A stretch of DNA of 64,000 nt from Rhodococcus sp. HM1 (GTDB taxonomy: Bacteria > Actinomycetota > Actinomycetes > Mycobacteriales > Mycobacteriaceae). Location of the stretch: positions 1-64,000 of the forward strand of contig NZ_JALPTB010000031.1 of assembly GCF_023218075.1 (NCBI RefSeq), in the 5' to 3' direction. Every line of letters begins with the position of its first letter. Position 1 is the stretch's first letter. The notes under the pieces were generated by a model. It was given only the letters and a program-made list of their open reading frames with translations, made no database searches and was not told where the DNA came from. This document shows positions 14,212-39,671 of this stretch, piece after piece. A program made the translations under genes and the position numbers.

Positions 14212-14220
14212 TCGCATACG

Positions 14221-14258
14221 GGTGTCCGTCCCGGCTGAAGGAGGCGGGGACGGACACC
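14221..14258 (+). terminator. Hairpin terminator after fadA6
   Basis: Perfect 12-base arms GGTGTCCGTCCC (14221-14232) and GGGACGGACACC (14247-14258) begin nine bases after the fadA6 stop codon. From here to about 14476 I see only decayed sequence from the neighbouring MaoC remnant. Confidence 0.75.
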
Positions 14259-14476
14259 TACCGCCGGGTGCGACGTTGTGCGCGACCATCGTGCCCGACG
14301 GTTCCAACGGCAGGCTCCGGGTGTTCCCGTCAGCATCGGGATCGACCCGGCAGCTTTCCGGATGAAGCGGATAGATTTCCGAGCGGTGGCGGTTCTGTTG
14401 GTTGTCGCCTCGCTGATATGGCCAGAATGCAGACCGGTCGACACCGGAGACACGTCGACGATCTCACCGTGCCCTC

Positions 14477-14702
14477 GCACTCGGCTTTCGACCGGAACCA
14501 ACGACAACGTCGGATTGCCGTGGACGATCGTACTGCCGAACGAGCTCTGCATGGCGCGCTCGGGATCGACGTGGATCCACTGGTGATCCTCGGTGATCTC
14601 GGCGAAGGCATCGATGTGAGCCCGGTCGATCTCGATCCACCGGCTGTGTCCGAGGTCGGTGCCGGCGGCCGTGGTCAGCTCGTCACAGGTGAAGGACGGC
14701 AT
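14477..14702 (-). pseudogene. MaoC-like hydratase remnant, N-terminal half only
   Basis: The first ~75 codons from the ATG at 14702 read like a MaoC/NodN-type hot-dog-fold enoyl-CoA hydratase: RWIEIDRAHIDAFAEITEDH followed by QWIHVDPERA and FGSTIVHGNPTLSL, including the hydratase-like Asp and His region. After about 14477 the similarity is lost and the frame runs into low-complexity sequence antisense to the fadA6 end, so the C-terminal half is missing. An intact member is about 150 residues. Its start overlaps the stop of the degraded SDR gene (ATGA), so the two were once an operon downstream of the acyl-CoA ligase. Confidence 0.65.
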
Positions 14703-15085
14703 CAGATAGACATGCCTCCGTCGACGGGCAGGACGACACCGGTGATGGATCCGGCTTCACGGGAGGCGAGAAAACGCCACCGCTGCATACATTTCGGAGG
14801 CGTCGGCGAAACCACCTATCGGACCGCGGCGGCGAGTTCAGCCTTCTTGTCGTCCGGGATGGAGGCGACCATGCGGGTTTCGGCGTCGGGGGAGATGGCA
14901 TTGACGGTGACACCGAAGCGGGCGAGTTCCTTGGCGGCGGTCTTGGTGATGCCGATGATGCCGGCTTTGGCCGTGGCGTAGTTGGCCTGGCCGGTGTTGC
15001 CACGCAGCCCGGTGAAGGAGGTGACGTTGACGACCCGACCGAAGCCTTGGGGCCGCGACATCGGGACGAGGTGAACTCACAGATC
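14702..15085 (-). pseudogene. Truncated, frameshifted SDR (FabG/PhaB-like)
   Basis: The C-terminal half of a short-chain dehydrogenase is recognisable: GFGRVVNVTS, then ANYATAKAGIIGITK with the catalytic Tyr and Lys, then VTVNAISP, and finally SITGVVLPVDGGMSI before the TGA at 14702-14704. Between about 14816 and 14772 the reading frame is displaced (GGFADASEMYAAVAF lies in another frame), consistent with one lost base near 14816 and one extra base in the A-run at 14771-14774. The N-terminal nucleotide-binding half is absent; sequence above about 15085 is unrelated. The frameshifts could be sequencing errors, but the truncation is not explained that way. Confidence 0.7.
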
Positions 15086-15206
15086 CAGGCCCACTTGTCG
15101 TAGCCGGTCATCGGTCTATCGAACATATTGGACCCCAGGGTAACTCGATCTGTCCGTGGAGTGGAACACGGCCTCCTGTTGCCGACCTTCCCGCCCGGAC
15201 TGTCGG

Positions 15207-16829
15207 TCAGACGTGTTCGACACACAATTCGCCGTCGTAGAACTGCGTACGAAGTCGCTTCTTGTCGAACTTTCCGACGGACGTTTTCGGCACCTCCGCT
15301 ATCCGTACCCAGTTCTCGGGGAGCTGCCAGCCTGCCACCCTGCCCACCATGAACTCCTTCAGCTGAGTCGGGGTGACATCGGAGCCGTCACGGATTACGA
15401 CGGCGACGAGTGGGCGTTCATCCCACTTGGGATCGGGGATGCCGATTACCGCCGCCTCGAGGACATCGGGGTGTGCCATGACGAGGTTCTCGAGTTCGAC
15501 CGACGAGATCCACTCACCGCCGGACTTGACGATGTCCTTGGAACGATCGGTGATGGTAAGGAAGCCATCCGGGGTGATCTTTCCGACGTCGCCCGTGCGA
15601 AGCCACCCGTCATCGAACTTCTCCGGTGCGTCCACTCCGTAGTACGCGCCGGCGATCCACGGTCCTCGCACTTCCAGTTCTCCGACGGACGTGCCGTCCG
15701 ACGGAACGACGGCGCCGGTGTCGTCGACGAGCCTGGCCTCGACACCGGCGGGGAACCGCCCCTGGGTGTAGCGGTATCGCCAGGCCTCCTCGCCGGTGGC
15801 ACTACTCGGGGGGTGGGCGACCGAGGCCAGAGGCGACGTTTCGGTCATGCCCCACGCATGTAGCACGGTGATGCCGTGCTGCTCCTCCAATGCGTGCATG
15901 AGGGCGGGCGGAACGGCCGACCCACCCACCACGACAGTCTTCATCGACGAAACGTCGTCGGCGTGGTTCTCCAGGTGGTGCAGGATGCCTTGCCAGATCG
16001 TCGGCACGGCCGCGGCGAAGTTCGGGCGAGCTTCGGCGATCATCCGGACGAGGGGTTCGGGTTGCAGGAAGCGATCAGGCATGAGCAACGAGGCCCCGAC
16101 CATGAACGCGGCGTAGGGCAGTCCCCACGACATCGCATGGAACTGTGGGACGATCGCCAATGCGTTGTCGCCCTGCCGCAGCGCCATCCCGTCGGTCATG
16201 CACACGGACATGGAATGTAACCAGATCGAACGATGTGAGTAGACAACGCCTTTCGGATCTCCGGTCGTACCCGAGGTGTAGCACATCGCGGCGGCGGACC
16301 GCTCGTCGATTTCGGGCCAGTGGAATTCGGTGGGCTGGTCTGCGATCAGAGCCTCGTAGGCGTGTACCTGCACGCCCTCGGGCGCCTCGAGACCGGCGGT
16401 CGTGTCACCGGTGACTATGACGTGCTTGACGGAGGTCAGCTGCGGTAGTTGCGGTGCGAGGAGCGGGATGAGGGTGGGGTCGACGATGATCACGTGGTCT
16501 TCGGCGCGGTTGGCGACGTGGACCAACTGCTCCGGGAACAGGCGGATGTTGAGGGTGTGCAGGACGGCGCCCATCGACGGTACCGCCAGGTATGCCTCGA
16601 GGTGTTCGGCGTTGTTCCACATGAACGTGGCCACCCGCTGGTCGCCGGTGACTCCGAGTCCGCGCAGGGCGTGTGCCAGTGCCGCGCATCGTCTGCCGAT
16701 CTCGGCGTAACTGCGACGCTGCGCTCCGAAATCGGTCCAGGTGACGACCTCGGCCCCGCCGTGAACGGTGCTGCCGTAACGCAGCAAGGTAGCGATGGAC
16801 AGCGGCGCGTCCTGCATCGTGCTGAGCAT
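15207..16829 (-). CDS. Acyl-CoA ligase (AMP-binding)
   Basis: This 540-residue adenylate-forming enzyme resembles medium/long-chain or aryl-alkanoate CoA ligases. It has CYTSGTTGDPKGVVYSH near residue 185, HAWGMTETSPL near 340, GWLRTGDVGKITPDGFLTITDRSKD near 425 and the terminal lysine in TSVGKFDKK. GAGGAG precedes the ATG at 16829. It follows the carotenoid-oxygenase-like gene on the same strand and originally headed the series ligase-SDR-MaoC, so it probably activated an acid formed from the cleavage product. The substrate is unknown. Confidence 0.87.
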   Translation of the reverse strand: MLSTMQDAPLSIATLLRYGSTVHGGAEVVTWTDFGAQRRSYAEIGRRCAALAHALRGLGVTGDQRVATFMWNNAEHLEAYLAVPSMGAVLHTLNIRLFPEQLVHVANRAEDHVIIVDPTLIPLLAPQLPQLTSVKHVIVTGDTTAGLEAPEGVQVHAYEALIADQPTEFHWPEIDERSAAAMCYTSGTTGDPKGVVYSHRSIWLHSMSVCMTDGMALRQGDNALAIVPQFHAMSWGLPYAAFMVGASLLMPDRFLQPEPLVRMIAEARPNFAAAVPTIWQGILHHLENHADDVSSMKTVVVGGSAVPPALMHALEEQHGITVLHAWGMTETSPLASVAHPPSSATGEEAWRYRYTQGRFPAGVEARLVDDTGAVVPSDGTSVGELEVRGPWIAGAYYGVDAPEKFDDGWLRTGDVGKITPDGFLTITDRSKDIVKSGGEWISSVELENLVMAHPDVLEAAVIGIPDPKWDERPLVAVVIRDGSDVTPTQLKEFMVGRVAGWQLPENWVRIAEVPKTSVGKFDKKRLRTQFYDGELCVEHV

Positions 16830-16965
16830 CCGAACTCCTCTCGTGGAAGCGGCGAACCGAGTCTCGTCGGCACCGCAGGTGTGGCCGCGGATCCGGGGTG
16901 GTGTTCCCGGACCCGCGGAAGGCATCATCCGTTGCAGGGTAATGTCATTCGTCGGCTAGGGCGGA

Positions 16966-18468
16966 TTACCGCGCTTCCGCGAGAACCCGATTCTCGCCGT
17001 CGATCCGGTCACCTTCGACCCAGCATGCGTGGGTGCCCGCGCAGATCCGTTCGGGGAGGATGATCCGGCAGACCGGTCCCTCTTCGATGCGCGCGGCGTC
17101 GTAGACGACGCACTCGGAAGTGTCGGCCGTCAGGTCGTTGACGAAGGTGATCACGTAACCGTCGTCCTCGGCGGTGTAGCCGTCGCGCAGCGCCATGCAC
17201 ACTTCGGACCCGAAACGGCCGTCGCCGTATTCGGTGCGGGTCACGTTGCCGGTCTTGAGCTCGAACTTCTTGATTCCGGTCATCATCCAGTGCCCGGGCA
17301 GGAATAGCGATGCGTACGCGTACTCGTAGTCGCGACCCACGAAATCGTTACTGACTACCGGGAATTCGACGACCTCGTCGTCGAGGGGGAACTCGCGGAC
17401 CTCGCCCGTCACCATGTTGAACATCCACCGGTACATGTGGGTATGGGTGGCGTGCTTGTCGAGCTGACGGGCAATGCGCCCGTAGACGTCGTTCGGATTC
17501 TGCACGGGCGGCATCACGGGGTTGTCCCAGATGCAGCCGTCCTGGACCACCCAGTCGCCGTCCTCGAAGCAGTTGGCCAGGTGCATCACCCAGGCCGGCT
17601 TTGCTTCGAACCAGCGGACGTCCTCGGTCCGTCCGTAGCGGGGAATGATACCGAACCGTGCCGGAATTTCGTCATGGAAGTCCAGCTTCTTGCGCCCGGC
17701 CTTGAGTGCATCCGGGTCGAAGAAGTACGGCAGATCGTGGAGGATCGAGTACCGCTTGGTGATACCCAGGTCGTGGGGCCAGCGCGCGCCGGGCAACTCG
17801 ATCGGCACGTAGTGGACGAGGTTGTCTTCCTTGTTGACGACGCCGTAGTTCATGAACGGAGCGGTTATCGGGTAGTTGAAGAAGACCAGCTCGCCCGTGT
17901 CGTTGTCGACCTTGTAGTGCGACGCCAGACCGTCAGGGACCAGCTGTGCCCAGCTCTTGGTTCCGAGAGTCTCGAGCGTGGTGGGGCTCAGGCTCCACGG
18001 TTCGCTGCCCTGGGACATCGATGCGATGATCTGGCCGCTGTGCACGATCACATCGGTGCCGGCGTTGTCCTTCATCGCGCCCATCGACCCCCACCCGCGA
18101 CGGGTGTAGTCCTGCGGCTGGAGCAGTCCCGGCCATAGTGCCTTGCCCGCGCCCTGTTCGGCGAGGAAGCCGGTGGTTCGCACGAACTTGTTGCGGTACT
18201 CGACCTTTCCGTCGTCAAAGCGCATCGCATGGAGCATTCCGTCACCGTCGAACGGATGGTAGATACCGATCGGCGCCATGGCCTGGTTGTGGGTGTTGCG
18301 GATGTAGATGCCGTTGAGGTCACGAGGGATCTCACCGATGACCTTCATTTCGTCACCAGAAACCGCGTACTCGCGGCGCTGCGGCTTCCATGCGCCGCGC
18401 AACCACGGATTGTCGGTCTGGTCCTCGGTGGGAACGGTGAGGACGAGCGATTCGTCGACGTTGAACAT
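16966..18468 (-). CDS. Carotenoid-oxygenase-family dioxygenase (lignostilbene/isoeugenol-type)
   Basis: This 500-residue protein is full length for the non-haem iron family that cleaves carotenoids, stilbenes or phenylpropenes at a C=C bond to aldehydes. The four iron-binding histidines fit His184 (ASHYKVD), His232 (WPHDLG), His296 (VMHLANCFEDGD) and His480 (AGTHACW), and the HPFDGDGMLHAM seven-bladed-propeller motif lies near residue 71. There is no signal peptide. The ATG at 18468 has AAGGAG upstream. A GntR-type operator (18524-18534) matching one at the GntR/SDR promoter puts it in the same regulon as the ABC importer and the aldehyde dehydrogenase. Substrate is inferred only: a stilbene, isoeugenol-like phenylpropene or apocarotenoid. 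Confidence 0.87.
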   Translation of the reverse strand: MFNVDESLVLTVPTEDQTDNPWLRGAWKPQRREYAVSGDEMKVIGEIPRDLNGIYIRNTHNQAMAPIGIYHPFDGDGMLHAMRFDDGKVEYRNKFVRTTGFLAEQGAGKALWPGLLQPQDYTRRGWGSMGAMKDNAGTDVIVHSGQIIASMSQGSEPWSLSPTTLETLGTKSWAQLVPDGLASHYKVDNDTGELVFFNYPITAPFMNYGVVNKEDNLVHYVPIELPGARWPHDLGITKRYSILHDLPYFFDPDALKAGRKKLDFHDEIPARFGIIPRYGRTEDVRWFEAKPAWVMHLANCFEDGDWVVQDGCIWDNPVMPPVQNPNDVYGRIARQLDKHATHTHMYRWMFNMVTGEVREFPLDDEVVEFPVVSNDFVGRDYEYAYASLFLPGHWMMTGIKKFELKTGNVTRTEYGDGRFGSEVCMALRDGYTAEDDGYVITFVNDLTADTSECVVYDAARIEEGPVCRIILPERICAGTHACWVEGDRIDGENRVLAEAR

Positions 18469-18523
18469 GGGTTCTCCTTGCTGTGTCTTTGATGTCCGTA
18501 CAGTGCTTGGTAAAGTGGATGAT

Positions 18524-18534
18524 TGGTTGAACCA
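18524..18534. promoter_or_regulatory. GntR/FadR-type operator upstream of the C=C dioxygenase
   Basis: TGGTTGAACCA has the TGGTnnnACCA form typical of FadR-subfamily (FCD) regulators. With flanks it reads GATTGGTTGAACCAT and closely matches the reverse complement of the site at 26143-26153. It lies 56 bases upstream of the dioxygenase start codon. Confidence 0.6.
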
Positions 18535-18570
18535 TTTTCGGCAGATTGATCGGCGAAAGTGGTGTGAGGT

Positions 18571-18612
18571 GGTGGACTCACCTGGGCGAAACAGAAACCA
18601 GGTGAGTCCACC
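18571..18612 (-). terminator. Hairpin terminator of the ABC-transporter operon
   Basis: Perfect 15-base arms GGTGGACTCACCTGG (18571-18585) and CCAGGTGAGTCCACC (18598-18612) with a 12-base A-rich loop lie nine bases past the LivM-type permease stop. Confidence 0.8.
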
Positions 18613-18620
18613 GTACCCGA

Positions 18621-19763
18621 TCAGATACACGGATTCTGCGATGTCGGTCCCGCGGTGTCTCGAGGTACGGAGCGTCGGGTGGAGCGATGTCTGCCCTTCG
18701 CTTCCAACCAACGTGAGACCTGGCGGAGCAGTCCCCGCCCGCCGCCTGCGATACCGAGAGGCATGAAGAACATCAACAGCACGAGAAGCGCGCCGTACAC
18801 CATGTTGGCCCCCGTGCCGCCGACGACATCGGCGGTAAGGGTCGGCAGGAATGCCAGCACCAGGCCGCCGATTATCGGTCCGACCAGTGTCCCCGACCCG
18901 CCGATGAGGAGGCCGGTCAACAGCTGGATGGACAGGAATATGCCGAACGTCTCGGGTCCGACTACCCCGGTGACCATGGCGAACAGGGAACCACCGATGG
19001 CAGCGATGGCGGTGCTCGAGGCGAATGCGATCGTCTTCTCCCGCGCCAGGTGCACTCCACTCGTGGCGGCCGCGACCTCGTTGTCACGGATCGCTATGAG
19101 CGTCCGGGATCGCCCGTAGCGGACGAGGTTGCGGCACACCAACAATCCGATTCCGGTGACGACGGCGACGACGAGGTAGTTGATGGTCGTCTGGGTGAAG
19201 AAGGCAGGAGCACCGTCGGGTATCACCCACGCCGACTGGAGGAGCTTTCCGTTGACGCCACCGGTCAGGTCCGGGAAATGCGTGATGATCAGTGGGAAGA
19301 CCACCGCGAAACTCAAGGTGACCAGACCCAGGTAGTGGCCCTTGAGGCGTAGCGCGGGCAGGCCCGCGATCACACCGACCACGAATCCGAGGACGGCGCC
19401 GACCGGTAGCGTTGCCAGTAGCGGCCACCCGTGGTCGGTGACAAGGATCGTGCTCGTGTACGCGCCGATGCCGAAGAATGCACTGTGACCGAGCGAGATC
19501 TGCCCCGCATATCCGGACACCAGGTTGAGCCCGAGTATCGACAGTCCGTAGGCCAGCGCCGTCGCCAGTTGCAGGACTCGGGCCTCGGGGAGGGCGACCG
19601 CCGTCACCGCAACGACCGCCACGTATCCAAGCGCTCCGACGTACAGGGAGCGGCGAGAGAACCGCGCCGCCACCGCCTGCATCGCGGACCGCGTTTCCTC
19701 GGCCACGGGGCGACCGCTGACCGATTCGACATTCCGTTGCACGACACCAGTTTCGGTAGTCAT
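18621..19763 (-). CDS. Branched-chain-type ABC transporter permease (LivM family)
   Basis: This 380-residue membrane protein has about nine hydrophobic segments and the LivM signature GYAGQISLGHSAFFGIGAYT-like stretch near residue 80, plus SGVHLAREKTIAFASS on the cytoplasmic coupling side. LivM/LivH pairs import branched-chain amino acids, urea or small aromatic acids. The ATG at 19763 overlaps the LivH-type stop by ATGA. It is last in the five-gene importer set, followed by a terminator. Confidence 0.9.
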   Translation of the reverse strand: MTTETGVVQRNVESVSGRPVAEETRSAMQAVAARFSRRSLYVGALGYVAVVAVTAVALPEARVLQLATALAYGLSILGLNLVSGYAGQISLGHSAFFGIGAYTSTILVTDHGWPLLATLPVGAVLGFVVGVIAGLPALRLKGHYLGLVTLSFAVVFPLIITHFPDLTGGVNGKLLQSAWVIPDGAPAFFTQTTINYLVVAVVTGIGLLVCRNLVRYGRSRTLIAIRDNEVAAATSGVHLAREKTIAFASSTAIAAIGGSLFAMVTGVVGPETFGIFLSIQLLTGLLIGGSGTLVGPIIGGLVLAFLPTLTADVVGGTGANMVYGALLVLLMFFMPLGIAGGGRGLLRQVSRWLEAKGRHRSTRRSVPRDTAGPTSQNPCI

Positions 19764-20710
19764 ACCCGTGTCACCTCCTTCTGTCCGAACATGCCTTGAG
19801 GCCGGATCACCAGGACGACAAGGAGCAGGACCAGTGCAATCATCAGTCCCGAGCCGGTGCCGATCGCGGGGAAGAGCCTCGGTACCACCGATTCGACGAC
19901 GCCGACCAACAGTCCACCGACGACCGCACCGACGAGGCTGTCGAAGCCGCCGACGCACGCCGCGGTGAACGCGAAGATCAGGACGTTGATCATCATCGAG
20001 AAGTTGAGCGTGCTCGTCGCCTGAGAGGTGAGCGCGCCGGCCAGCGTTCCGGGTACGGCGGCGAGCGCCCACCCGAAAGCGAACACACCCGCGACCGGGA
20101 TGCCCACCAGTGCCGCTGAGGATCGGTTGGAGATGACCGCCCGGTAAGCGACCCCCAATTTCGTCTTGGACAACAGAATCCACAGCACGATCAGCAGAGC
20201 GATCAACGCCCCCCACACCCCGAGAGTCACGAAACTCAGAGTGAAGGGCCGGTCTCCGCCGATGATCGTCAACCGGTCCTCCGTTCCATCCGGAAACGGA
20301 GCCAGTGGAGTCTTGTTATCGACTCCCCACACGACACCTGCGAACGAGTTGGCGAAAAGGAACATTCCCAACACTGCGATGAGTGACGCACTGTGCCCAC
20401 GGCTTTCGAGTGGACGCATGACGCCGAACTGCAGGGCCGCCGATGCGGCCGCTGTGACCACCATCGTCACGAGGATGGCAACCCAGATCGGCATTCCCAT
20501 CCCGACGAACGTGAACACGAGAAATGCGGAGATCATCGCGAACTCGCCCTGTGCGAAGTTGAGGTGACCGGTGGTGCGATACACGGTGACCAGGGCGACC
20601 GCGAGCAGCGCGTACAGCGCGCCGTTCGCCAGCCCGGTGGACACGGTGCTCAACCATTCCGGCAGCGAGACCTCCGCTGCGAGTATGTGTGTCGACGGAT
20701 TCATGGTCAT
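19760..20710 (-). CDS. Branched-chain-type ABC transporter permease (LivH family)
   Basis: This 316-residue membrane protein has about eight transmembrane segments. The LivH-type N-terminal region ANGALYALLAVALVTVYRTT and LNFAQGEFAM near residue 52 is clear, as is the loop GVAYRAVISNRSSAALVGI that contacts the ATPase. Start is the ATG at 20710, overlapping the LivF-type stop; a second in-frame ATG is at 20704. It forms the membrane channel with the LivM-type partner. Confidence 0.9.
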   Translation of the reverse strand: MTMNPSTHILAAEVSLPEWLSTVSTGLANGALYALLAVALVTVYRTTGHLNFAQGEFAMISAFLVFTFVGMGMPIWVAILVTMVVTAAASAALQFGVMRPLESRGHSASLIAVLGMFLFANSFAGVVWGVDNKTPLAPFPDGTEDRLTIIGGDRPFTLSFVTLGVWGALIALLIVLWILLSKTKLGVAYRAVISNRSSAALVGIPVAGVFAFGWALAAVPGTLAGALTSQATSTLNFSMMINVLIFAFTAACVGGFDSLVGAVVGGLLVGVVESVVPRLFPAIGTGSGLMIALVLLLVVLVIRPQGMFGQKEVTRV

Positions 20711-21489
20711 ACTCCCAGATACGCTTGTCGGACGCCGTCGTGGTCCTGCAGTTCGGCGGCGGTTCCGGACAGGACCGTGTTTCCCGACTCGAGCACGTAA
20801 CCGCGGTCTGCGATGGCGAGAGCCAGTTCGGCGCTCTGCTCGACGACGAGCATCGACGTCTCCTGTTCCCGGTTGATCTTCCCGAGCATCCGGAACAGGT
20901 CCTGCACGATGCGGGGCGCAAGCCCCAACGACGGCTCGTCGAGCAGTAGCAGGCGCGGGCGCGACATCATCGCCCGAGCGATTGCCAGCATCTGTTGCTC
21001 ACCGCCGCTGAGGGTGCCCGCCTTCTGTTGTCGTCGCTCGCCGAGGCGCGGGAACGTCTCGAGCCAGAACGCAATGTCCTGCGCGACTTCCGAACGGGAA
21101 CGGCGCAGGAATGCACCCGCCGCGAGGTTCTCGAGCACACTGAGGTCCTTGAAGGTGCCGCGACCTTGCGGCACCATCGCGATTCCGCGCCGCGCGATGG
21201 TGCGTGTCGATTGGCCCACCAACTCCTCACCGTCGAACCGGACACTGCCCGAGGAGCGGACCACGCCGCACAGGGCACGCAGGGTGGTTGTCTTCCCGGC
21301 ACCATTCGCGCCGAGCAGGACGACGACCTCGCCGCGGCCCACCCGAAGTGAGACGTCGTGCAGAACGGGGACCGGACCGTACCCGGCCCGGATCGACGCG
21401 ACCTCGAGCAGCGCGTCCGCGGCGGGCTGCGTCGTCGAGTCCTGCTCGACGTGCCCCGCCGGTTCCGATTCATTCGTCGTCATGGTCAT
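20707..21489 (-). CDS. ABC transporter ATP-binding protein (LivF family)
   Basis: This 260-residue ATPase has Walker A GANGAGKTT near residue 60, the signature LSGGEQQM near 160 and Walker B RLLLLDEPS. The GYGPVPVLHDVSL strand and the C-terminal YVLESGNTVLSGTAAEL are LivF-specific. It carries an N-terminal extension of about 27 polar residues. ATGA overlaps link it to both neighbours. Confidence 0.92.
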   Translation of the reverse strand: MTMTTNESEPAGHVEQDSTTQPAADALLEVASIRAGYGPVPVLHDVSLRVGRGEVVVLLGANGAGKTTTLRALCGVVRSSGSVRFDGEELVGQSTRTIARRGIAMVPQGRGTFKDLSVLENLAAGAFLRRSRSEVAQDIAFWLETFPRLGERRQQKAGTLSGGEQQMLAIARAMMSRPRLLLLDEPSLGLAPRIVQDLFRMLGKINREQETSMLVVEQSAELALAIADRGYVLESGNTVLSGTAAELQDHDGVRQAYLGV

Positions 21490-22286
21490 TCGGCCTTCGT
21501 TCCGAGATACGCTTCGACGACGCGTGGATCCTGCGCGACTTCACGCGGCTCACCGTCGGCGATCTTGACTCCACGATCGAGAACCACGACGTGATCGCAG
21601 TTCCCCATTACCAGGCCCATGTGGTGTTCGACCAGCAGGATCGTCAGGTCGAGCCGGGCGCGGAGCGTGACGAGCTCTTCTGCGAGTTCGTCCACCTCAC
21701 TGTGGATCAACCCATTGGCCGGTTCATCCAGAAGCAGGAGGCGGGGCCGGGATGCGAGCGCCCGGGCCAGTTCGATCCGTTTGAGCGTGCCGATCGGCAG
21801 GTCTGCCGCGGGCCGATCCGCGAGGTGCGCCAGTCCGAGCTCCGACAGGACTTCGTAAGCGCGCTCACAGATCTCACGCTCGGCGCGCCGGGCACCGATC
21901 CCGGTTGAGGAGCGCAGCCAGCCGATCCGGGACGGGCCGCGCACACCCACCGCGACGTTGTCGAGAACGCTCAACGTCGGGAACAGTGCGATCTCCTGGA
22001 ATGTCCGGGCCATACCGAGCTCGGAAATTCGATGCACCGGCACCGAGAGCAGATCGTGGTCACCGAAGAGCCGCACCGAGCCGCTGCTCGGTTCGTAGAT
22101 GCGAGTCATGATGTTGAACGCACTGGTCTTGCCGGCGCCGTTCGGACCGATCAGCCCACAGATACTGCCGGCGGTGACGGTGAAGGTGACGCTGTCGAGG
22201 GCCTGGATACCACCGAACGACAGACTCAAGTCCACTACCTCGAGGGCCGGCGTCGCTCCAGTGTCGGAATTGGTCGTCACATCCAT
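21486..22286 (-). CDS. ABC transporter ATP-binding protein (LivG family)
   Basis: This 266-residue ATPase has LSFGGIQALDSV, Walker A GPNGAGKTS near residue 47, the LivG-type ARTFQEIALFPTLSVLDNV Q-loop and Walker B LLLLDEPANGL. The ABC signature is atypical (LPIGTLKRIELA instead of LSGGQ), which is seen in a number of LivG proteins. The ATG at 22286 is one base from the stop of the binding-protein gene. Paired with the LivF-type ATPase. Confidence 0.92.
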   Translation of the reverse strand: MDVTTNSDTGATPALEVVDLSLSFGGIQALDSVTFTVTAGSICGLIGPNGAGKTSAFNIMTRIYEPSSGSVRLFGDHDLLSVPVHRISELGMARTFQEIALFPTLSVLDNVAVGVRGPSRIGWLRSSTGIGARRAEREICERAYEVLSELGLAHLADRPAADLPIGTLKRIELARALASRPRLLLLDEPANGLIHSEVDELAEELVTLRARLDLTILLVEHHMGLVMGNCDHVVVLDRGVKIADGEPREVAQDPRVVEAYLGTKAE

Positions 22287-22287
22287 G

Positions 22288-23643: not shown

Positions 23644-23737
23644 GGGTGTCTCCGTTCGAGGACTCGAGGAAGAGACGTCGACGATCCATCCGGGTGTATC
23701 GTCGTGAGTCTCGGATGTTGCTGGTGTTGGTTGGAAT

Positions 23738-31020: not shown

Positions 31021-31117
31021 CTGTTCGTCCCCCGGACAGTTCGAACTCTTATTGAACCGACGTACAGTAGTCACGCTACGCCCGGATCGGGCGCTGTCAA
31101 GACGCTAGATTGGCGAC

Positions 31118-31702: not shown

Positions 31703-31722
31703 GTCGTGACCCGGCTGCCGCC

Positions 31723-33543
31723 TCAGATCTCCGTGACTCCGTAGGTCTTGAGCTTGCGGTACAACGAGCTTCGCGCCATCCCGAGCATTTCTGCGGCGCG
31801 GACGCGGTTTCCGTCGCACTCGCGGAGCGCGGCGACGATCGCGTCCCGTTCGGTAGCCTCGAGCACACTGAGGGTGCGAGTACTCGTCGACCGGCAGTAG
31901 CCGGGGAGATCATCGGCCTGGATCTCACCGACCGGACGTTTCAGCACGGCGCTGTGAAGCGCTTCGCGCAGCTGAGTCATGTTCCGTGGCCACGAGTAGG
32001 CGCCCAGGACACGCATCGCCTCCGGACTCAGTCGGATCCGGCGCTCGGGGGCGATTTCGCGGAGCGTCCTGTCGACGAGACGAGGGAAGTCGACGGATCG
32101 GAACCGGATCGCGGGGACGGTCACCGACTGGTCGAAGTTCGCCAGGACGTCTTTGCAGGGCAGGTCGGACTCGATGCCGGTGTCCGACAGTGTCGCGGCG
32201 ACGATGAAGTTTCTCGTATCGAGATCCAGGGAATCGAAGAACTCGTTGAGAACGTCGACGCCGTAGGTGGTGAGCCGGTCGAGATTCCGGACGATCAGCA
32301 ATGTCGAGGTGGTCGTGTCGACCGCAGTGAGCTCACCCTGCCGCGTCACGCTGTCCGCGTCGATCGCGATGCTCCGGCCGGACGGGTACATCCGATGGAA
32401 CAGCTCCGCGAGGAGAGTGAACTTCCCTGTCCCGGGTTCGCCGAGGACGAGCAGGTTCTCCCGTCGTCCGAGTGACTCGATGATCGAGTCGCACGCCTGT
32501 TTCCATGCCGGACAGCGGCTTTCGGTGATCGATGGTGGCGGGTTGTGAAGTCCGGATGCGATGGCGGTGGTTCGGGGGTCCGGTGCGTCGACCGCGGGAA
32601 GCGTCCGGTCGACCGCCGGAGTGCCGGCATTGTCCGGGGTGTTGTCGTCGAGAAGCAGAACCATTCCCGCAACCTCGTCGCCGCACAGGATCCTGGTGGC
32701 GCGGATGTGGACGGTCCGGCCCGAAGGCAGCGAAATCGATTCCGCGCTGCGGTCGCGTCGGGTCATGAGGAAACGCGCGTGCTCGTGGATCGCGAGTTGT
32801 TCCTCCGGGGTGAACATGTTCTGTGAGCGCCGGTTCATGATCACGGTCTCGCCGATCGCCATGACCGCTTGACGCGGACGCGAATCGGCCTTGACGTACA
32901 TCTCGAACAACGCCTGCTCCGCCTGGTTCCGGTCGAGGAGCAGATTGCGGCCTATGTCCATGGCTGCGGACTTGACCAGGGCGTGCAGGAGCGGGGACCA
33001 GCTCTCGGCGAGCATGCTGACGTCGAGGACGCCTTCGATCCTGCCGGAGATGGGATCCAGAATCGGCGCGCCGGTGCAGGCGAACTGCACCAGTGCGTCG
33101 TTGAAATGTTCGGGGCCCACAATGCTGATCGCAGAACCGGATTCGAAGACGGTGCCGATACCGTTGGTTCCCACACCCTGTTCTGCGTAGCTGAACCCGG
33201 GCAGGAAATCGACCCGATCGAGCAGCCTGCCGACGAAATTGGAGCAGTCGCGGCGATCGACGATGCGGGCGTGGGCGTCGGTGAGCGCGATACCGACGGG
33301 GACATCCGCGATGTCGGCGGAGAGTCGCTCGAGGACCGGTCGTGCGCACCGTACCAGTCGCGAATCGAAGTCGATGTCGTCGTGATACTCCACGTGGAAC
33401 GTTGCGTAATCGACGCCGGCGGACTGGCTGCGCTGCCACGAGGCGGCAACGACGTCGGGAACCCCGGCTGCTCCGGCGCTCCCGTATTCGAGGAAGTCCG
33501 CTCGCGCCGCGGCAATGCGCAGTCGCTCGCGCTCGTCGACCAT
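31723..33543 (-). CDS. AcoR-like enhancer-binding regulator lacking the sigma-54 contact motif
   Basis: This 606-residue regulator has an N-terminal GAF-type sensory region (residues about 80-220), a central AAA+ region with Walker A LGEPGTGKFTLL and a C-terminal Fis-type HTH (NRVRAAEMLGMARSSLYRKLKTYG). The GAFTGA loop that contacts sigma-54 is absent and the usual Walker B Asp-Glu is replaced by LLIVRN, fitting actinobacteria, which lack sigma-54; MimR-type activators of alkane and ketone genes are comparable. It is divergent from the Baeyer-Villiger monooxygenase, whose promoter contains TCTTGGGACAG repeats, and probably activates it. Confidence 0.85.
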   Translation of the reverse strand: MVDERERLRIAAARADFLEYGSAGAAGVPDVVAASWQRSQSAGVDYATFHVEYHDDIDFDSRLVRCARPVLERLSADIADVPVGIALTDAHARIVDRRDCSNFVGRLLDRVDFLPGFSYAEQGVGTNGIGTVFESGSAISIVGPEHFNDALVQFACTGAPILDPISGRIEGVLDVSMLAESWSPLLHALVKSAAMDIGRNLLLDRNQAEQALFEMYVKADSRPRQAVMAIGETVIMNRRSQNMFTPEEQLAIHEHARFLMTRRDRSAESISLPSGRTVHIRATRILCGDEVAGMVLLLDDNTPDNAGTPAVDRTLPAVDAPDPRTTAIASGLHNPPPSITESRCPAWKQACDSIIESLGRRENLLVLGEPGTGKFTLLAELFHRMYPSGRSIAIDADSVTRQGELTAVDTTTSTLLIVRNLDRLTTYGVDVLNEFFDSLDLDTRNFIVAATLSDTGIESDLPCKDVLANFDQSVTVPAIRFRSVDFPRLVDRTLREIAPERRIRLSPEAMRVLGAYSWPRNMTQLREALHSAVLKRPVGEIQADDLPGYCRSTSTRTLSVLEATERDAIVAALRECDGNRVRAAEMLGMARSSLYRKLKTYGVTEI

Positions 33544-33634
33544 GGATGCACCCTTCTTGCGATTCGATTTGTCCGAAAATGAGACCTGCGTCACATCATT
33601 ATCGGCTCGTTTCCCGAGTCTGGCGACCTCCCGG

Positions 33635-33671
33635 CTGTCCGATCTTGGGACAGTCCGGCCTCTTGGGACAG
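33635..33671. promoter_or_regulatory. Activator-site candidates upstream of the Baeyer-Villiger monooxygenase
   Basis: TCTTGGGACAG occurs twice in the same direction (33643-33653 and 33661-33671), 18 bases apart. The first also forms a dyad, CTGTCC with GGACAG (33635-33653). They lie 50 to 90 bases before the monooxygenase ATG, a fitting place for binding of the Fis-type regulator encoded alongside. Confidence 0.55.
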
Positions 33672-33721
33672 CGGAAGCATTGTTCGCAGTCGTGATACAC
33701 ATCACAGGAAAGGGTCGAACA

Positions 33722-35341
33722 ATGGCTATCGGTACACCAACTGCCCACCGCACTCTGGACGCCCTGATCATCGGCGCGGGGGTGGCCGGCCTCTACCAAC
33801 TGCACCTGTTGCGGGAACAGGGACTGAACGTCCGCGTGTTCGAGACCGCCGCCGACGTGGGGGGGACGTGGTACTGGAACCGTTACCCCGGTGCGCGCTT
33901 CGATTCGGAGGCCTACATCTACCAGTACCTGTTCTCGGAAGAGCTCTACAAGAACTGGAGTTGGAGCCAGCGGTTCCCCGCTCAGCCCGAGATCGAACGG
34001 TGGATGCACTACGTGGCCGATGCGCTCGACCTTCGCCGGGACATCTCGTTCTCCACGACCGTCACGAGCGCCGAATACGACGAGAAGTCGGGCCGGTGGA
34101 CCGTGCGGACCGACAGCGGAGAGGTCGTGGACACGCAGTTCCTCATCACGTGCTGCGGGATGCTCTCGGCGCCGCTGCAGGACCTGTTCCCGGGACAGCA
34201 GGACTTCGCGGGGCAGATCTTCCACACCTCGCGCTGGCCGCGTGAGGGAGCCGAGATCGCGGGCAAGCGGGTCGGCGTGATCGGCACCGGCGCCACGGGT
34301 ATCCAGGTCATCCAGACCATCGTCGACGAGGTCGCGGACCTGACGGTGTTCGTCCGCACGCCGCAGTATGTGCTCCCGATGAAGAACCCGTCGTACAGCG
34401 CTGACGACGTGGCGGCGTACAAGGCCCGCTTCGAGGAACTCCGTAGCACGCTGCCGCACACCTTCACCGGTTTCGAATACGACTTCCGATACGTGTGGGA
34501 CGAGTTGACGCCCGAGCAACGACGCGAGGTGCTCGAGGAGATCTACGAGAACGGATCGCTGCAGATGTGGCTGGCGTCGTTCGCCGAGATGTTCTTCGAC
34601 GAGGCCGTCAGCGACGAGATCTCCGAGTTCGTGCGGGAGAAGATGCGGGCGCGGCTGGTCGACCCGGAACTGTGCCGGCTCCTGATCCCCGAGGACTACG
34701 GGTTCGGCACCCACCGGGTGCCGCTCGAAACCGGCTACCTCGAGGTCTACCACCGACCCAACGTCACGGCGGTGGGCGTGCGCGAGAACCCGATCTCCCG
34801 CATCGTGCCCGAAGGGGTGCTGCTCGCCGACGGCACCCTGTACGAGCTGGACGTGATCATCCTGGCCACCGGTTTCGACGCGGGCACCGGCGCCTTGACC
34901 CGCATCGACATCCGCGGTGTCGGCGGACGGTTGCTGAAGGACGACTGGTCGCGGGACATCCGCACGACGATGGGGCTGATGGTGCACGGCTACCCGAACA
35001 TGCTCACCACCGCTGTTCCCCTCGCCCCGTCCGCGGCGCTGTGCAACATGACCACCTGCCTGCAGCAGCAGACCGAGTGGATCGACGAGTGCATCCGGTA
35101 CATGCGGAAGAACGGCTACACCGTGATCGAGGCGACCGAGGAGGGGGAGGCCGCGTGGGTCGCCCACCATGACGAGACCGCCGCCGCGAACCTGATCTCG
35201 AAGACGAACTCCTGGTACACCGGCTCGAATGTCGAGGGCAAGCCGCGCCGGGTGCTGTCGTACACCGGCGGTGTCGGCACCTATCGGGAGAAGACGCTCG
35301 AGGCCGCCGCTGCCGGCTACAAGGGATTCGAACTGCGATGA
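33722..35341 (+). CDS. Baeyer-Villiger flavin monooxygenase
   Basis: This 539-residue FAD/NADPH enzyme inserts oxygen next to a ketone carbonyl to form an ester or lactone. It has the FAD loop GAGVAG (18-23), the type I BVMO fingerprint FxGxxxHxxxWP at residues 162-173 ([12 protein letters not shown]), the NADPH loop GTGATG (188-193) and the late motif [11 protein letters not shown]. It is closest in style to cyclohexanone/phenylacetone-type monooxygenases. GGAAAGGG precedes the ATG at 33722. The stop overlaps the start of an esterase gene (ATGA), so the lactone product is probably hydrolysed at once. Confidence 0.93.
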
Positions 35342-36555
35342 GCACCGACACCGTGAAGGGACGACAGATCATGACCGAAGCACTTCGCGCATCCGTCGAT
35401 GCGATCCTGAACAAGACTGTCACCGCCGAGGCGCCGGTGCCGGGAGTGGTCGCGATGGTGACCGACCGGGAAGGCAACGTCTACGAGGGCGCGGCGGGAA
35501 AGCGCCGAATCGACCAGGACGCGGCGATGACGACGGACGATGTCTTCGCGCTCTTCTCGACGACGAAGGCCTTCACCGCGACCGCGGCACTGCAGCTGGT
35601 GGAGCAGAACCGCCTCGACCTCGACGCGCCGGCGGGCAAGTACGTTCCGGAGCTGGGAAGCGTCCAGGTCATCGAGGGGTTCGACGACTCCGGCGAACCG
35701 GTGCTTCGAGAACCCCGCCGCGACATCACCACCCGCATGTTGCTCACCCACACCGCCGGATTCGGCTACGACTTCTTCAACGAGAAGTACCGGCGCCTGG
35801 CGGAGGAGAAGGGACAGCCGAGCGTCATCACCGCCACGAAGCAGGCACTGGACACTCCGCTGTTGTTCGACCCCGGGGACCGTTGGGAGTACGGCAGCAA
35901 CCTCGACTGGTGCGGCCGGGTGATCGAGGCGATCACCGGGAACCGGCTCGGCGACGTGTTCTCTGCCGGGATCTTCGAGCCGCTCGGCATCGAGAGCATG
36001 ACCTTCGAACTCGACGACACGCGCCGTGCCGATCTGGCCGGGATGCACGCCCGCAATTCCGACGGATCGCTTTCCGTGATGGACTTCGAACTGCCGTCCC
36101 CGCCGGAAGTGCACATGGGGGGTCACGGCCTGTACGGCACTGTCGGTGACTACATGCGGTTCATCCGGATGTGGCTGAACGACGGAAAGGGTGAACACGG
36201 GCAGGTCCTGCGACCGGAGACGGTCCGGATGGCCGTGCAGAATCATCTCGGGGAGCTTCCCGTGACACCGCTGCCCGGCGTCATCCCGTCGCTGTCGAAC
36301 GACGCCGAGTTCTTCCCCGGGATCTCGAAATCGTGGTCGCTGCCGTTCATGATCAACAACCAGCAGGCTCCCACCGGGCGACCCGCCGGTGCACTGGGGT
36401 GGGCGGGGCTCGCCAACCTGTTCTACTGGATCGATCGACAGTCCGGATACGGGGGATTCTGGGCGACCCAGATCCTGCCGTTCGGTGATCCCACCTCGTT
36501 CGGTGGCTACCTCGAATTCGAATCGGCGCTGTACGCGTCGCTCGACCGACGGTGA
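35338..36555 (+). CDS. Beta-lactamase-fold esterase (family VIII)
   Basis: This 405-residue serine hydrolase belongs to the class C beta-lactamase/esterase fold, with SxxK at Ser74-Thr-Thr-Lys77 (LFSTTKAFT), a Tyr in WEYGSNLDW as general base and [12 protein letters not shown] near residue 265. No signal peptide is seen, so it is intracellular and more likely an esterase or lactonase than an antibiotic-resistance enzyme. Translationally coupled to the Baeyer-Villiger enzyme; the pair would turn a ketone into an alcohol plus acid or a hydroxy acid. An internal ATG at 35371 is an alternative start. Confidence 0.87.
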
Positions 36556-36561
36556 GCCGGG

Positions 36562-36594
36562 GGGACGCGCTCGGGCTCGGCCCGAGCGCGTCCC
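36562..36594. terminator. Bidirectional hairpin terminator
   Basis: Perfect 15-base arms (36562-36576 and 36580-36594, starting GGGACGCGCTCGGGC) with a 3-base loop separate the convergent esterase and CocE-type hydrolase genes. Confidence 0.85.
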
Positions 36595-36614
36595 TGCGTG
36601 TGCCGGTCGGGGAA

Positions 36615-38639
36615 CTACCGCACGATCGGGACGGTGGCGAAGCTCGGCGCGGACGGATCGAGCCGGATGTGCTGCGGTTTCAGACCGCTGTCGTGAAGCA
36701 TCGGACCCAGTGGCAGCGACCGCGGCACGCTCGACGCGTACACGTCGATCCGGAGCCGGTGACCCGGTTGCAGGATCGCGTCGGTGAGCACCGTCGAGAT
36801 GTCCAGGCGGGTGGGCACACCGGTCTCGAGGGTCTCCCGCGTGTCGAGCGTCAGGTACGGGACGGCGTGGGCGTAGTCGCCGGCGGGGGTGAAGGTGCTG
36901 CGGGAGTCGTCGATCGCGCGCAGCGACGCGACGAGCGAACCGGAGGTCAGGACGGTCGAACGGCCGTCGGGCGCCACGTCGTTCACGGTCACCGACCAGA
37001 AGCCGTCGGGGGCGTCGAGGACGGTGTTCAGGTGCACGTTGATCGCGCCGGAGATCTCGGTCGGTTCGGTGACCGGGGCGCCGGTGAACGTCAGACCCTC
37101 CGCCTCGTTGAAGCGGGCGTCCTTGGTGCAGTTCGAACCGAGCAGCACCGTGATTCCGGCGGTGCCGACGGCCGATTCGCGCGAGCAGAACCCGCGCAGA
37201 CCCGGCGCGATCGTCAGATCCTGGGTGCCGGAGGGCGCCTCGGGCGTGAGGCTTCCGTCGAAGGCGGCGTGGCCCGCGGTGCCGCTCGGGGCGCCGGACA
37301 GATAGAACTTCTCGAATTCGGCACCGGCACGGGGGAACTGATCGGTGGTGGTCCATCCGCCGCCCTGCTGGAACAGGGTGACCGGCCCGTAGTTCTCGAT
37401 GCCGTTGTCGATTCCTTTGAGCCAGTGGTCGAACCAGGCGCGCTGCAGGGTGCCGAGCTTCGGCGGGAAGCCCGGCCTGCCGAAGTCGGTACCGGCGACG
37501 ACGTGGTAGCCGTCGCCCATCATCAGCTGCTTCTCGCCCGGCGCGACCGGGATGCGGTTGTAGATGTCCGGCTCGCTGTTGGCGAAGATGTCGTGCCAGC
37601 CCCCGTACACGAAACTGGGCACTTCGATCGACTCGAGATTCGCGGTGCGGTCCTGGTAGAACGGTCCGTCCTGCGCGACCTCGAGTGCGTTGGGGGAGAC
37701 CCCTTCGACGGTGGGGGCTGTGACCGCCTCGACGAGTTCGGGAAGTTTGGTGGCGGGGTCGGCCATCCGGTCGCGCAGCCACTGCGCGTCGAAGTTGCCC
37801 TGCAGCAGGGCCTGCACATCCGGGATCCACTTGAGCCCGTTGACGAGGGTGAGCCACATCGGCATGAATCCGATACCGAGTGCGCCGCCGGTGCCGACGA
37901 TGTCGCGCAGCAGGTCGTTGCCGGGTTCCACCGCGAACACCGCGTCGAGCGCGGCCGGTTGCAGACCCGCACCCTGCAACTGGTTGATCGCCGAGTAGGA
38001 CACACCGCTGGTGCCGACGCGGCCGTTCGACCACGGCTGCTTCGACGCCCAGTCGATGACCTCGACGGTGTCCTGCTGTTCGCGCGGGCCGAGGACCTGC
38101 CATTCACCCTGCGAGAATCCGGTGCCGCGGACGTCGACGATGACCTGCGTGTAGCCGTTCTGCACGAGGTCGCGGTTGAGTCCGAAGACCTGCACGAGTC
38201 CGCCGCCGGTCGTCTTCGCGAGCTCGGTGACCCCGTCGTACGGGGCGGCGAAGTTCAGCGTGTCGCCGAGGCCCTCGACCAGCGGGGCGAGGGTGGGGTC
38301 GTCGGCCACGACGGTTCCCAGGGTCGAGAGCAGCTTGGTGTAGGGCGTGAGGTTGAGGACGACGGGGGTGGGCTCCGCGATCGGTGTTCCGTTCGCGTCC
38401 GCGGGGCGGAAGACGTTGGCGCGCAGGACGGTGCCGTCGCTCATCGTGATGGGGACGTCCCATTCGACGGCGGTGTTCGGGTACGCGTCGGGTGCGTCGA
38501 CCGCGGCCTGCCACGCGGCAGCGTCGGTCCCGCCGGACGGATCGGCGCCGGCAACCGGTGTCGCGGTGATCGCGGCGGCGACTGTGGTGGCGGCGACGGC
38601 CACCGACGCGATCGCCCCGCGCAGGAATCGTCTCTTCAC
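36615..38639 (-). CDS. Exported CocE/NonD-family hydrolase (peptidase S15-like)
   Basis: This 674-residue protein starts with a signal peptide (MKRRFLRG, hydrophobic core, cleavage near VAGA-DP) whose twin arginines allow Tat export. A CocE-type alpha/beta-hydrolase domain follows, with the nucleophile region VGTSGVSYSA near residue 215 and the acid/His region around GGWHDIF, then a C-terminal jelly-roll beta domain (residues about 450-674). The family includes cocaine esterase and X-prolyl dipeptidyl aminopeptidases; in rhodococci exported members probably cleave esters outside the membrane. Start is GTG at 38639. Confidence 0.87.
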   Translation of the reverse strand: MKRRFLRGAIASVAVAATTVAAAITATPVAGADPSGGTDAAAWQAAVDAPDAYPNTAVEWDVPITMSDGTVLRANVFRPADANGTPIAEPTPVVLNLTPYTKLLSTLGTVVADDPTLAPLVEGLGDTLNFAAPYDGVTELAKTTGGGLVQVFGLNRDLVQNGYTQVIVDVRGTGFSQGEWQVLGPREQQDTVEVIDWASKQPWSNGRVGTSGVSYSAINQLQGAGLQPAALDAVFAVEPGNDLLRDIVGTGGALGIGFMPMWLTLVNGLKWIPDVQALLQGNFDAQWLRDRMADPATKLPELVEAVTAPTVEGVSPNALEVAQDGPFYQDRTANLESIEVPSFVYGGWHDIFANSEPDIYNRIPVAPGEKQLMMGDGYHVVAGTDFGRPGFPPKLGTLQRAWFDHWLKGIDNGIENYGPVTLFQQGGGWTTTDQFPRAGAEFEKFYLSGAPSGTAGHAAFDGSLTPEAPSGTQDLTIAPGLRGFCSRESAVGTAGITVLLGSNCTKDARFNEAEGLTFTGAPVTEPTEISGAINVHLNTVLDAPDGFWSVTVNDVAPDGRSTVLTSGSLVASLRAIDDSRSTFTPAGDYAHAVPYLTLDTRETLETGVPTRLDISTVLTDAILQPGHRLRIDVYASSVPRSLPLGPMLHDSGLKPQHIRLDPSAPSFATVPIVR

Positions 38640-38732
38640 CCGGAACCCCCATCTCGACGGTGAAAACCCCGGAAAACGTATCCCGATCGGTGGGGTGGGT
38701 CAACGATCTGCGCACGGGTGTCCGCTATTTGT

Positions 38733-39506
38733 TCAGCGGAATCCGCCGTCGGACCGGACGATGGTCCCGGTGGTGAAACTCGACGCGTCGCTCGCGAGAA
38801 ACAGTGCAGCGCCCACGATTTCGTGGGGTTCACCGATCCGCTTCAGGTGCACGGCCTCACCCGACTGCCGGATCTGTTCCGGGGTCCAGGCATTGGAGAT
38901 GTCCGTGCGGTAGGGGCCGGGCATGAGGGTGTTGACGCGCACCTCGGGCGCGAGCAGGTCGGCGAAACCCTCGGTCATGGCGTTGAGACCGCGCTTGGCG
39001 GAGGCGTAGTGGATGAACGCGCCGGAAGGGTGCAGCGAGCCACTGCTGCTCACGTTGATGATCGAGCCGCTGCCCTGCTCCTTCATTCGGGGACCGACGA
39101 GCTGGGTGAGCCGGAACGGCCCTTTGAGATTCAGTCCCAGCACGCTGTCCCACAGCGCCTCGGTGACATCGGCGATGTTCCGGTAGACGGGGGACATGCC
39201 GGCGTTGTTGACGAGGATGTCGATGCGTCCGAAGGTCGCGTAGGCGGCGTCGACGAGTCCTTCGATCTCGTCCCAGTGGCCCATGTGGCAGGCGTAGGCG
39301 AGGGCTCGCCGGCCGGTGGTCTCCTCGATCTCGGCGACCACCTTCTCGCAGTTCTCGATCTTGCGGCTCGCGACGACGACGTCGGCCCCGGCGCGGGCGA
39401 ATGCGAGCGCGATCTCCTTGCCCATGCCACGGCTGCCGCCGGTGATCAATGCGACCCTGCCGTCGAGACGGAATCGGTCGAACGGTGCGGGTATCGCGTC
39501 GGTCAT
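38733..39506 (-). CDS. Short-chain dehydrogenase/reductase
   Basis: This 257-residue SDR has TGGSRGMG near residue 22, an Arg after the second strand (ASRKIE) that favours NADPH, NNAG near 98, Ser in NVSSSGS and the catalytic YASAK. GAGAGGGCAG precedes the ATG at 39506. It stands alone between the CocE-type gene and the ipdC terminator. Upstream (39540-39551) lies the dyad GTTCTCAAGAAC, a possible repressor site that resembles but does not clearly match a KstR box. Substrate unknown. Confidence 0.88.
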   Translation of the reverse strand: MTDAIPAPFDRFRLDGRVALITGGSRGMGKEIALAFARAGADVVVASRKIENCEKVVAEIEETTGRRALAYACHMGHWDEIEGLVDAAYATFGRIDILVNNAGMSPVYRNIADVTEALWDSVLGLNLKGPFRLTQLVGPRMKEQGSGSIINVSSSGSLHPSGAFIHYASAKRGLNAMTEGFADLLAPEVRVNTLMPGPYRTDISNAWTPEQIRQSGEAVHLKRIGEPHEIVGAALFLASDASSFTTGTIVRSDGGFR

Positions 39507-39602
39507 CGAGCTGCCCTCTCGTCAGAAAATGGTGTTCTCGTTCTCAAGAACGTTATTCTTGACGTTAACGGACGACGGTGGCTCTGGGAAGTACCCCGCA
39601 CG

Positions 39603-39645
39603 CCGAAGCGCCGCCCCGCGACGGAAAAGCGGGACGGCGCTTCGG
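39603..39645 (-). terminator. Hairpin terminator after ipdC
   Basis: Arms 39603-39619 and 39629-39645 (CCGAAGCGCCG with CGGCGCTTCGG plus an inner CCCGC/GCGGG) form a 16-pair stem just past the ipdC stop codon. Confidence 0.8.
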
Positions 39646-39671
39646 TGCTGCGAAAGCCGGGTGCGGCGGAA

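Follow-up and report, generated by a model that had tools for sequence, protein, structure and literature searches.

On a 76,241-base contig of Rhodococcus sp. HM1 (NZ_JALPTB010000031.1, of which positions 1 to 64,000 are called here the window; genome 6.93 Mb, 100% complete) there lies, at about 14371-29206, a segment of 14.8 kb, which is probably a horizontally acquired catabolic island built on a widely travelled module of one oxygenase and two hydrolases. The oxygenase belongs to the carotenoid cleavage oxygenase (CCO) superfamily and the hydrolases, ABH1 and ABH2, to the alpha/beta hydrolases. The segment, insertion 1, is read as an insertion because G017, the closest relative found, has an empty site at the orthologous place; by this absence in a close relative it qualifies as a genomic island. 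In DNA alignment the window positions 14263-14370 and 29243-31684 fall on adjacent stretches of G017 (L137 10819-10926 and 11094-13528); the right edge (29207) was placed by eye from the printed sequence. Insertion 1 adjoins steroid-catabolic genes and interrupted a small gene, the broken tail of which remains at 14212-15206. Its guanine-cytosine (GC) content is 64.8%, and that of a second insertion described below 65.1%, against 67.8-68.8% around them (68.8% in the left flank of insertion 1). The features of the island are as follows.

14371-29206, no strand: the island, an insertion relative to G017 (G017 alignment, right edge by eye, GC content)
14371-15206, minus strand: decayed frameshifted remnants, by eye like a short-chain dehydrogenase/reductase (SDR) and MaoC; of their open reading frames one, 14683-15225, was scanned and has no Pfam match at E 1e-6
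15207-16829, minus strand: acyl-CoA ligase, FadD-like (NF004837, 664 bits, cut-off 476; AGGAG before the start)
16966-18468, minus strand: carotenoid-cleavage-type oxygenase (CCO), outside the lignostilbene dioxygenase (LSD) equivalogs (PF03055, tree, alignment)
18621-19763, minus strand: LivM permease (Pfam)
19760-20710, minus strand: LivH permease (sequence, 73% identity to the R. globerulus copy)
20707-21489, minus strand: LivF ATPase (sequence, 74% identity to the R. globerulus copy)
21486-22286, minus strand: LivG ATPase (Pfam)
22288-23643, minus strand: LivK-type binding protein (Pfam)
23738-24538, minus strand: alpha/beta hydrolase ABH1, module core (profile and linkage; Ser92, Asp213, His241)
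24606-25340, minus strand: alpha/beta hydrolase ABH2, module core (profile and linkage; fused to ABH1 in Dietzia cinnamea)
25350-26054, minus strand: FCD-type GntR regulator (profile; 61% identity in R. globerulus, 43% in Arthrobacter)
26322-27119, plus strand: SDR oxidoreductase (profile; 57% in Arthrobacter, 58% in Dietzia aurantiaca)
27116-28525, plus strand: aldehyde dehydrogenase, ALDH (profile; 69% in Arthrobacter)

Ten of these genes form one minus-strand run in the order GntR, ABH2, ABH1, LivK, LivG, LivF, LivH, LivM, CCO and ligase, with gaps of -4 to +152 bases, and the SDR and ALDH pair, starting beside GntR, is divergent from it. The LivKHMGF importer is complete, its binding protein, two permeases and two ATPases standing together. 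An initial annotation, made from the sequence, had proposed a catabolic island with an importer and a C=C-cleaving oxygenase under a GntR regulator, reaching from 14.2 kb to 39671. The island as such was upheld by the empty site in G017, by the operon geometry and by synteny in Rhodococcus globerulus and Arthrobacter hankyongi. Its gene content (CCO, acyl-CoA ligase, Liv importer with binding protein, two hydrolases, FCD-type GntR regulator, divergent SDR and ALDH) was borne out at 15.2-28.5 kb by Pfam, NCBIfam and sequence. The extent had to be reduced on both sides: 14212-15206 holds no intact gene, only the frameshifted remnants and the broken small-gene tail, and to the right the P450, TetR, S15 hydrolase, SDR and IpdC-like genes are present in G017, with 31.7-36.6 kb being a separate insertion.

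The CCO and the two hydrolases form a recurrent module, with a linkage exceeding chance. Of 44 loci of the CCO clade, 37 have ABH1 within 10 kb of the CCO and 33 have ABH2; 32 carry the two together and 38 at least one of them (thresholds of 33% identity and 40% coverage; queries from the window and from L089). The conserved linkage in other genomes, whose absence had been named beforehand as the refuter of the island, does exist, R. globerulus and Arthrobacter included. Within 1.5 kb, ABH1 or ABH2 accompanies the CCO in 33 of 41 distinct clade loci, as compared with none of 55 control loci, which belong to sibling and other CCOs. These controls are what remained of 64 rows once four clade members, three repeats and both copies of the window had been taken out. 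ABH1 is 38-57% identical, over nearly its full length, in most clade loci, and the best paralogues elsewhere in the own genome reach 54 bits (27% identity) for ABH1 and 37 bits for ABH2. In Dietzia cinnamea (L099:8021-9559) ABH2 and ABH1 are a single open reading frame, that is a natural fusion. The ABH1 residues Ser92, Asp213 and His241 (numbered from one residue before Met) are invariant in 18 of 18 aligned rows; alignment A2 comprises the window and 17 loci. The best NCBIfam matches of both hydrolases are 3-oxoadipate enol-lactonase types, at 106 of 256 and 86 of 390 bits, below the cut-offs. A strigolactone-receptor-like nature of ABH1 was considered and rejected, as its KAI2 matches rank below esterases and meta-cleavage hydrolases, and a literature search on strigolactone and hydrolases found no matching paper.

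The arrangement around the module was compared between hosts. Rhodococcus globerulus carries GntR-LivK-G-F-H-M-CCO-ABH2-ABH1, followed by an ALDH of another type (35%), with identities of 61-74% for the regulator, importer and oxygenase and of 42 and 55% for the hydrolases. Arthrobacter hankyongi has ALDH-SDR-GntR-ABH2-ABH1 with the CCO about 5 kb away, and because ALDH (69%) and SDR (57%) are matched there in the same order, the SDR/ALDH block probably belongs to the island's system. Importers and regulators differ: Liv occurs in 2 loci besides the window, Ssu-like importers in 4, Dpp-like ones in 2 and TctC receptors in 34 of 44, the latter near the CCO in most loci of Pseudomonadota. Among actinobacteria Liv is found in the window, R. 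globerulus and D. cinnamea, the Ssu-like type in D. aurantiaca, G212 and one metagenome-assembled genome (MAG), and the Dpp-like type in Arthrobacter; the Ssu-like set was named by eye, and the binding protein of G212 (L116) has no Pfam match at E 1e-10. A constant enzyme core with changing importers is what would be expected if the core defines the chemistry.

The distribution of the oxygenase is patchy, which suggests a mobile trait. At more than 60% identity the CCO is present in 5 of 401 genomes of the host family, the own included, a family that also comprises R. globerulus and Dietzia. Within the genus it is found in 1 of 18 genomes, namely the own, and the rest reach 47%. In the genus of R. 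globerulus 1 of 28 genomes (NBRC 14531) matches at E 1e-160, in the order 2 of 397 at E 1e-150 (the own and one 48% match), and in the phylum 1 of 396 at E 1e-165 (again the own). In a named genome collection at least 40 loci with 52-74% identity were found in Actinomycetota, Pseudomonadota and Bacillota, a lower bound, the collection having been scanned with six short peptide patterns. Three CCO copies with more than 50% identity lie on plasmids, two of the three near IS6 or recombinase genes. Transposase-like open reading frames, recognised by eye, adjoin the G212 cluster (L116:18364-19516).

The CCO is placed in its superfamily by PF03055 (395 bits, cut-off 27), and alignment to LsdA gives H184, H232, H296 and H480 as its iron ligands. 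The four histidines had been taken as a sign of the lignostilbene/isoeugenol group; they are indeed present, but they are conserved alike in the clade (46-47 of 47 rows), in its sibling (36-37 of 37) and in the remaining CCOs (20-21 of 21), so that, being superfamily-wide, they do not point to that group. The assignment itself had to be given up, since its residues are absent and its equivalog scores are not reached. In the LsdA numbering the residues concerned are Tyr101 and Lys134, which we take to be the phenol-binding pair. For this numbering no literature source was found, and the available portion of PMC5133782 is silent on these residues. The corresponding columns hold Leu115 and Ser152 in the window CCO, and each member of the pair is absent in 47 of 47 clade rows (Ile, Leu, Met or Val in the Tyr101 column, Ser or Thr in the Lys134 column, both in 47/47). 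According to PMC6097328, Lys135 of PbLSD, the equivalent of LsdA Lys134, contacts the hydroxyl groups of resveratrol when this is docked, in agreement with the NOV1 complex. The nearest large sister of the clade is a sibling CCO clade of the same family of Actinomycetota (44-49% identical, two own-genome copies), which differs by lacking ABH1 and ABH2 within 1.5 kb in the control loci and by Tyr or Trp in the Ser152 column, therefore pockets differ inside the family. Further, 45-47 of the 47 clade rows share His60, His244, Trp230, Trp394 and Lys400 as clade-specific residues.

Against two LSD equivalogs the window CCO scores 224 of 800 and 194 of 650 bits, below the cut-offs, and against the 8'-apo-carotenoid 13,14-cleaving dioxygenase (NF052295), likewise a CCO, 229 bits with a cut-off of 675; the own-genome L005 CCO reaches 248 bits with the latter, slightly above the window CCO and also under the cut-off. 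None of the window CCO and 10 further clade members and relatives attains the LSD, NOV2 or 13,14-cleaving equivalog cut-off. Among proteins of solved structure carotenoid 9,10-dioxygenase ranks first for the clade profile (PDB 9m3e; 303 bits, and 222 bits for the single CCO sequence), followed by LsdA (218), NOV1 (195) and apocarotenoid-15,15'-oxygenase (177-187 bits). The two forks that enclose the clade in the tree, with 47 and 45 rows, have a support of 100/98 and 100/95, and eight actinobacterial rows form one clade (100/100). The tree was made from 83 of 105 rows, 22 sibling rows being left out for size, and includes no characterised reference enzyme, so closeness to any group rests on the scores. 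The CCO row set omits three short fragments from L101 and L102, and alignment A1 of the CCO comprises the window and 34 of 40 loci, with L078, L080, L083, L090, L101 and L102 omitted as near duplicates or broken.

The following pathway can be proposed, in which we infer every reaction, the order of steps, the substrate class and the participation of all genes in one pathway. The Liv-type ABC importer would bring a carboxylic acid or ester into the cell, the two hydrolases would break ester or lactone bonds before or after the oxygenase step, and the CCO, using iron and O2, would cleave a non-phenolic, electron-rich C=C bond to two carbonyl products. The SDR/ALDH pair would convert an alcohol or aldehyde product into an acid, the ligase would form a CoA thioester, and GntR would act as sensor of the substrate or an intermediate. 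That the genes constitute a catabolic module is probable from gene content, linkage and conserved columns. The substrate is a more delicate matter, and our tentative first choice is an acid or ester of a non-phenolic, apocarotenoid- or terpenoid-like type, preferred because carotenoid 9,10-dioxygenase gives the clade profile its highest score and because a P450 lies nearby in 3 of 7 other actinobacterial loci. Unlike that enzyme, however, the bacterial clade sits in catabolic clusters with a solute importer.

Other substrates have to be weighed against this choice. Another cyclic acid, whether aromatic or alicyclic and of natural or xenobiotic origin, is a possible though doubtful substrate. 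It would carry an electron-rich C=C bond of the enol or enol-lactone kind, and ABH1 and ABH2 would follow the CCO as enol-lactonase or C-C hydrolases. Both hydrolases score best with the 3-oxoadipate enol-lactonase types, the neighbouring ligases are of the cyclohexanecarboxylate/salicylate branch and there are plasmid and bioreactor hosts, yet the hydrolase scores stay far under the equivalog cut-offs and there is no sign here of such CCO chemistry. A lignostilbene/isoeugenol-type reaction, with the CCO cutting a 4-hydroxystyryl C=C bond to an aromatic aldehyde that would pass to the ALDH and ring degradation, is unlikely. The lignostilbene-alpha,beta-dioxygenases (LsdA, NOV1, PbLSD) and the isoeugenol/4-vinylguaiacol CCOs do share with the clade the superfamily, the four histidines and, according to PMC12997858 and PMC6700365, catabolic use, and an ALDH and an importer are at hand; the clade, in contrast, has replaced the Tyr101/Lys134 pair, whose lysine equivalent contacts resveratrol in PbLSD, falls well short of the LSD equivalog scores and is linked to two hydrolases and an importer, and a vanillate-type gene is absent among the recognised island genes.

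Abscisic acid (ABA), at first the most concrete candidate, would presumably be attacked at C2=C3 to give dehydrovomifoliol and glyoxylate. Strain AX7B of R. globerulus grows on ABA (PMC12509608), and NBRC 14531, the sole match at E 1e-160 among the 28 genomes searched in its genus, is of this species. Rhodococcus sp. P1Y makes dehydrovomifoliol from ABA as well, but the authors of PMC9599779 suggest a beta-oxidation-like step and a Baeyer-Villiger monooxygenase (BVMO), and G298, putatively the genome of P1Y, lacks the clade and has one CCO match of 35% identity, because of which ABA is placed low and considered quite improbable. There is finally the view that unrelated metabolic genes came to be adjacent by chance in an acquired segment; the ligase and the importer do vary by host and the thiolase-IpdC interval varies in content among relatives, but the trio is linked in both Actinomycetota and Pseudomonadota against none of the 55 controls, ABH2 and ABH1 are fused in one host, and blocks are shared with Arthrobacter and R. 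globerulus, which makes chance a very remote explanation.

Several observations weigh against the catabolic island and its apocarotenoid- or terpenoid-like substrate. The 64-kb window has no tRNA, the island ends share no repeats beyond two 12-base matches, no mobility genes were found (transposases were sought by eye only), and between GntR and SDR neither a promoter nor an operator was recognised, the inverted-repeat search giving one overlapping palindrome. Sibling and other CCOs likewise lack the Tyr/Lys pair, and its absence in all groups therefore excludes a stilbene-type pocket and identifies no other. As to the linkage counts, the control flanks cover 1.5 kb only and were measured from matches that are partial in some rows, and the controls are actinobacterial, the clade loci mostly proteobacterial. 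Since the rows are related and the two groups differ in their hosts, the Fisher value computed for this contrast is not to be read as a probability. A single genome or MAG contributes two loci in several cases among the 44. Neither hydrolase is found in 6 of the 44 (L065, L067, L093, L094, L095 and L097), and in L087 and L102 a sibling-clade CCO is found close to the trio, on one and the same stretch. Burkholderiales are rich in TctC receptors, and some of the 34 matches are only 29-31% identical. Close copies of SDR and ALDH are confined to Arthrobacter, plus an SDR in Dietzia aurantiaca. The CoA ligase, initially counted in the set, proved not to be a conserved member, the window type occurring in 8 of 44 loci at 25-42% identity. 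Another CoA ligase family lies beside CCOs in Arthrobacter, Cupriavidus and the own contig C1 (42-43% to each other), and the CCO-adjacent ligases of Arthrobacter and Cupriavidus are nearest to cyclohexanecarboxylate/hydroxybenzoate activators, which would also fit an aromatic or alicyclic acid.

To our knowledge the catabolic bacterial CCOs act on phenolic stilbenes and phenylpropenes. Examples of such enzymes are given in PMC12997858 and PMC6700365. Among the best-ranked titles and abstract openings of the literature search no description of the present cluster was recognised, which is no proof of its absence. It is conceivable, and put forward with reserve, that the loci represent an undescribed catabolic branch of the CCO superfamily, a mobile cross-phylum module of CCO, ABH1 and ABH2 with exchangeable importers, which would let bacteria grow on acids or lactones derived from apocarotenoids or terpenoids, perhaps signal molecules of plants or algae. 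Recurrent and mobile, accompanied by two hydrolases and provided with another pocket, such a CCO would lead to a class of unsaturated compounds for which the genes of bacterial degradation may so far be unassigned. In the freshwater Burkholderiales loci L088-L090 and L085 the CCO is surrounded by no more than its two hydrolases, a TctC receptor and a MarR regulator, and therefore the question can be tested with few genes.

The steroid-catabolic region lies at 4.7-14.2 kb and 36.6-48 kb of the window, split by both insertions. In G017 the order is EchA-FadD3-Hsd4-KstR2-thiolase, the small gene, then P450-TetR-S15 hydrolase-SDR-IpdC-IpdB, with the P450, TetR, S15-family hydrolase, SDR and IpdC-like genes within 6 kb after the thiolase; G017 is also the genome with the closest IpdC-like protein in the genus search (96%). 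The steroid gene names (EchA, Hsd4, KstR2-, thiolase-, IpdABC- and KshA-like) are those which we presume from steroid catabolism; FadD3 is above its own NCBIfam cut-off and the IpdC-like protein above none. Window 36619-41571 aligns to G017 directly after the 29243-31684 match, and insertion 2, missing in G017, occupies about 31685-36618 with a Fis-type regulator, a BVMO and an AcmB-type methyl acetate hydrolase (696 bits, cut-off 550), a set suggestive of a methyl-ketone/acetone pathway. The greater part of 29.6-39.7 kb is an older neighbourhood outside the island.

The thiolase-IpdC interval is a variable spot, whose content and length differ among relatives. Sixteen genus relatives were compared, with IpdC present in 16, the S15 hydrolase in 12, P450 and TetR in 4 and the SDR in 2; in the 15 showing both ends the distance read from coordinates is about 4-17 kb, against 25 kb in the window. 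CCO, ABH1, ABH2, LivK, LivH and LivM gave zero matches at E 1e-8 in this stretch of the 16 relatives (L138 stops before the thiolase side), and weak matches were given by LivF in three (31-32%), BVMO in one (43%) and ALDH in one (42%).

Some minor observations concern the CCOs outside the island. A CCO paralogue of the own genome (46%), belonging to the sibling clade, is clustered on contig C1 (L154, G000:C1, 6347-14304) with CoA ligase, thiolase, thiolase-like and NMO-like genes, the NMO-like protein being encoded in the CCO loci of Cupriavidus as well. Relatives (47-86%) of the NMO-like protein of C. necator stand beside CCOs in ten other loci, including Pigmentiphaga and Hydrogenophaga. In Polaromonas P2-4 (L101 8125-11498) the CCO and ABH1 are each split over two frames, and so is ABH1 on the plasmid of Polaromonas P1-6 (L106 13122-13921), as a result of decay or sequencing errors. 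Marinobacter and Sporosarcina (L093, L094, L095) have two clade CCOs each, with ABH1 and ABH2 absent in the fetched stretches, and possibly use another substrate.

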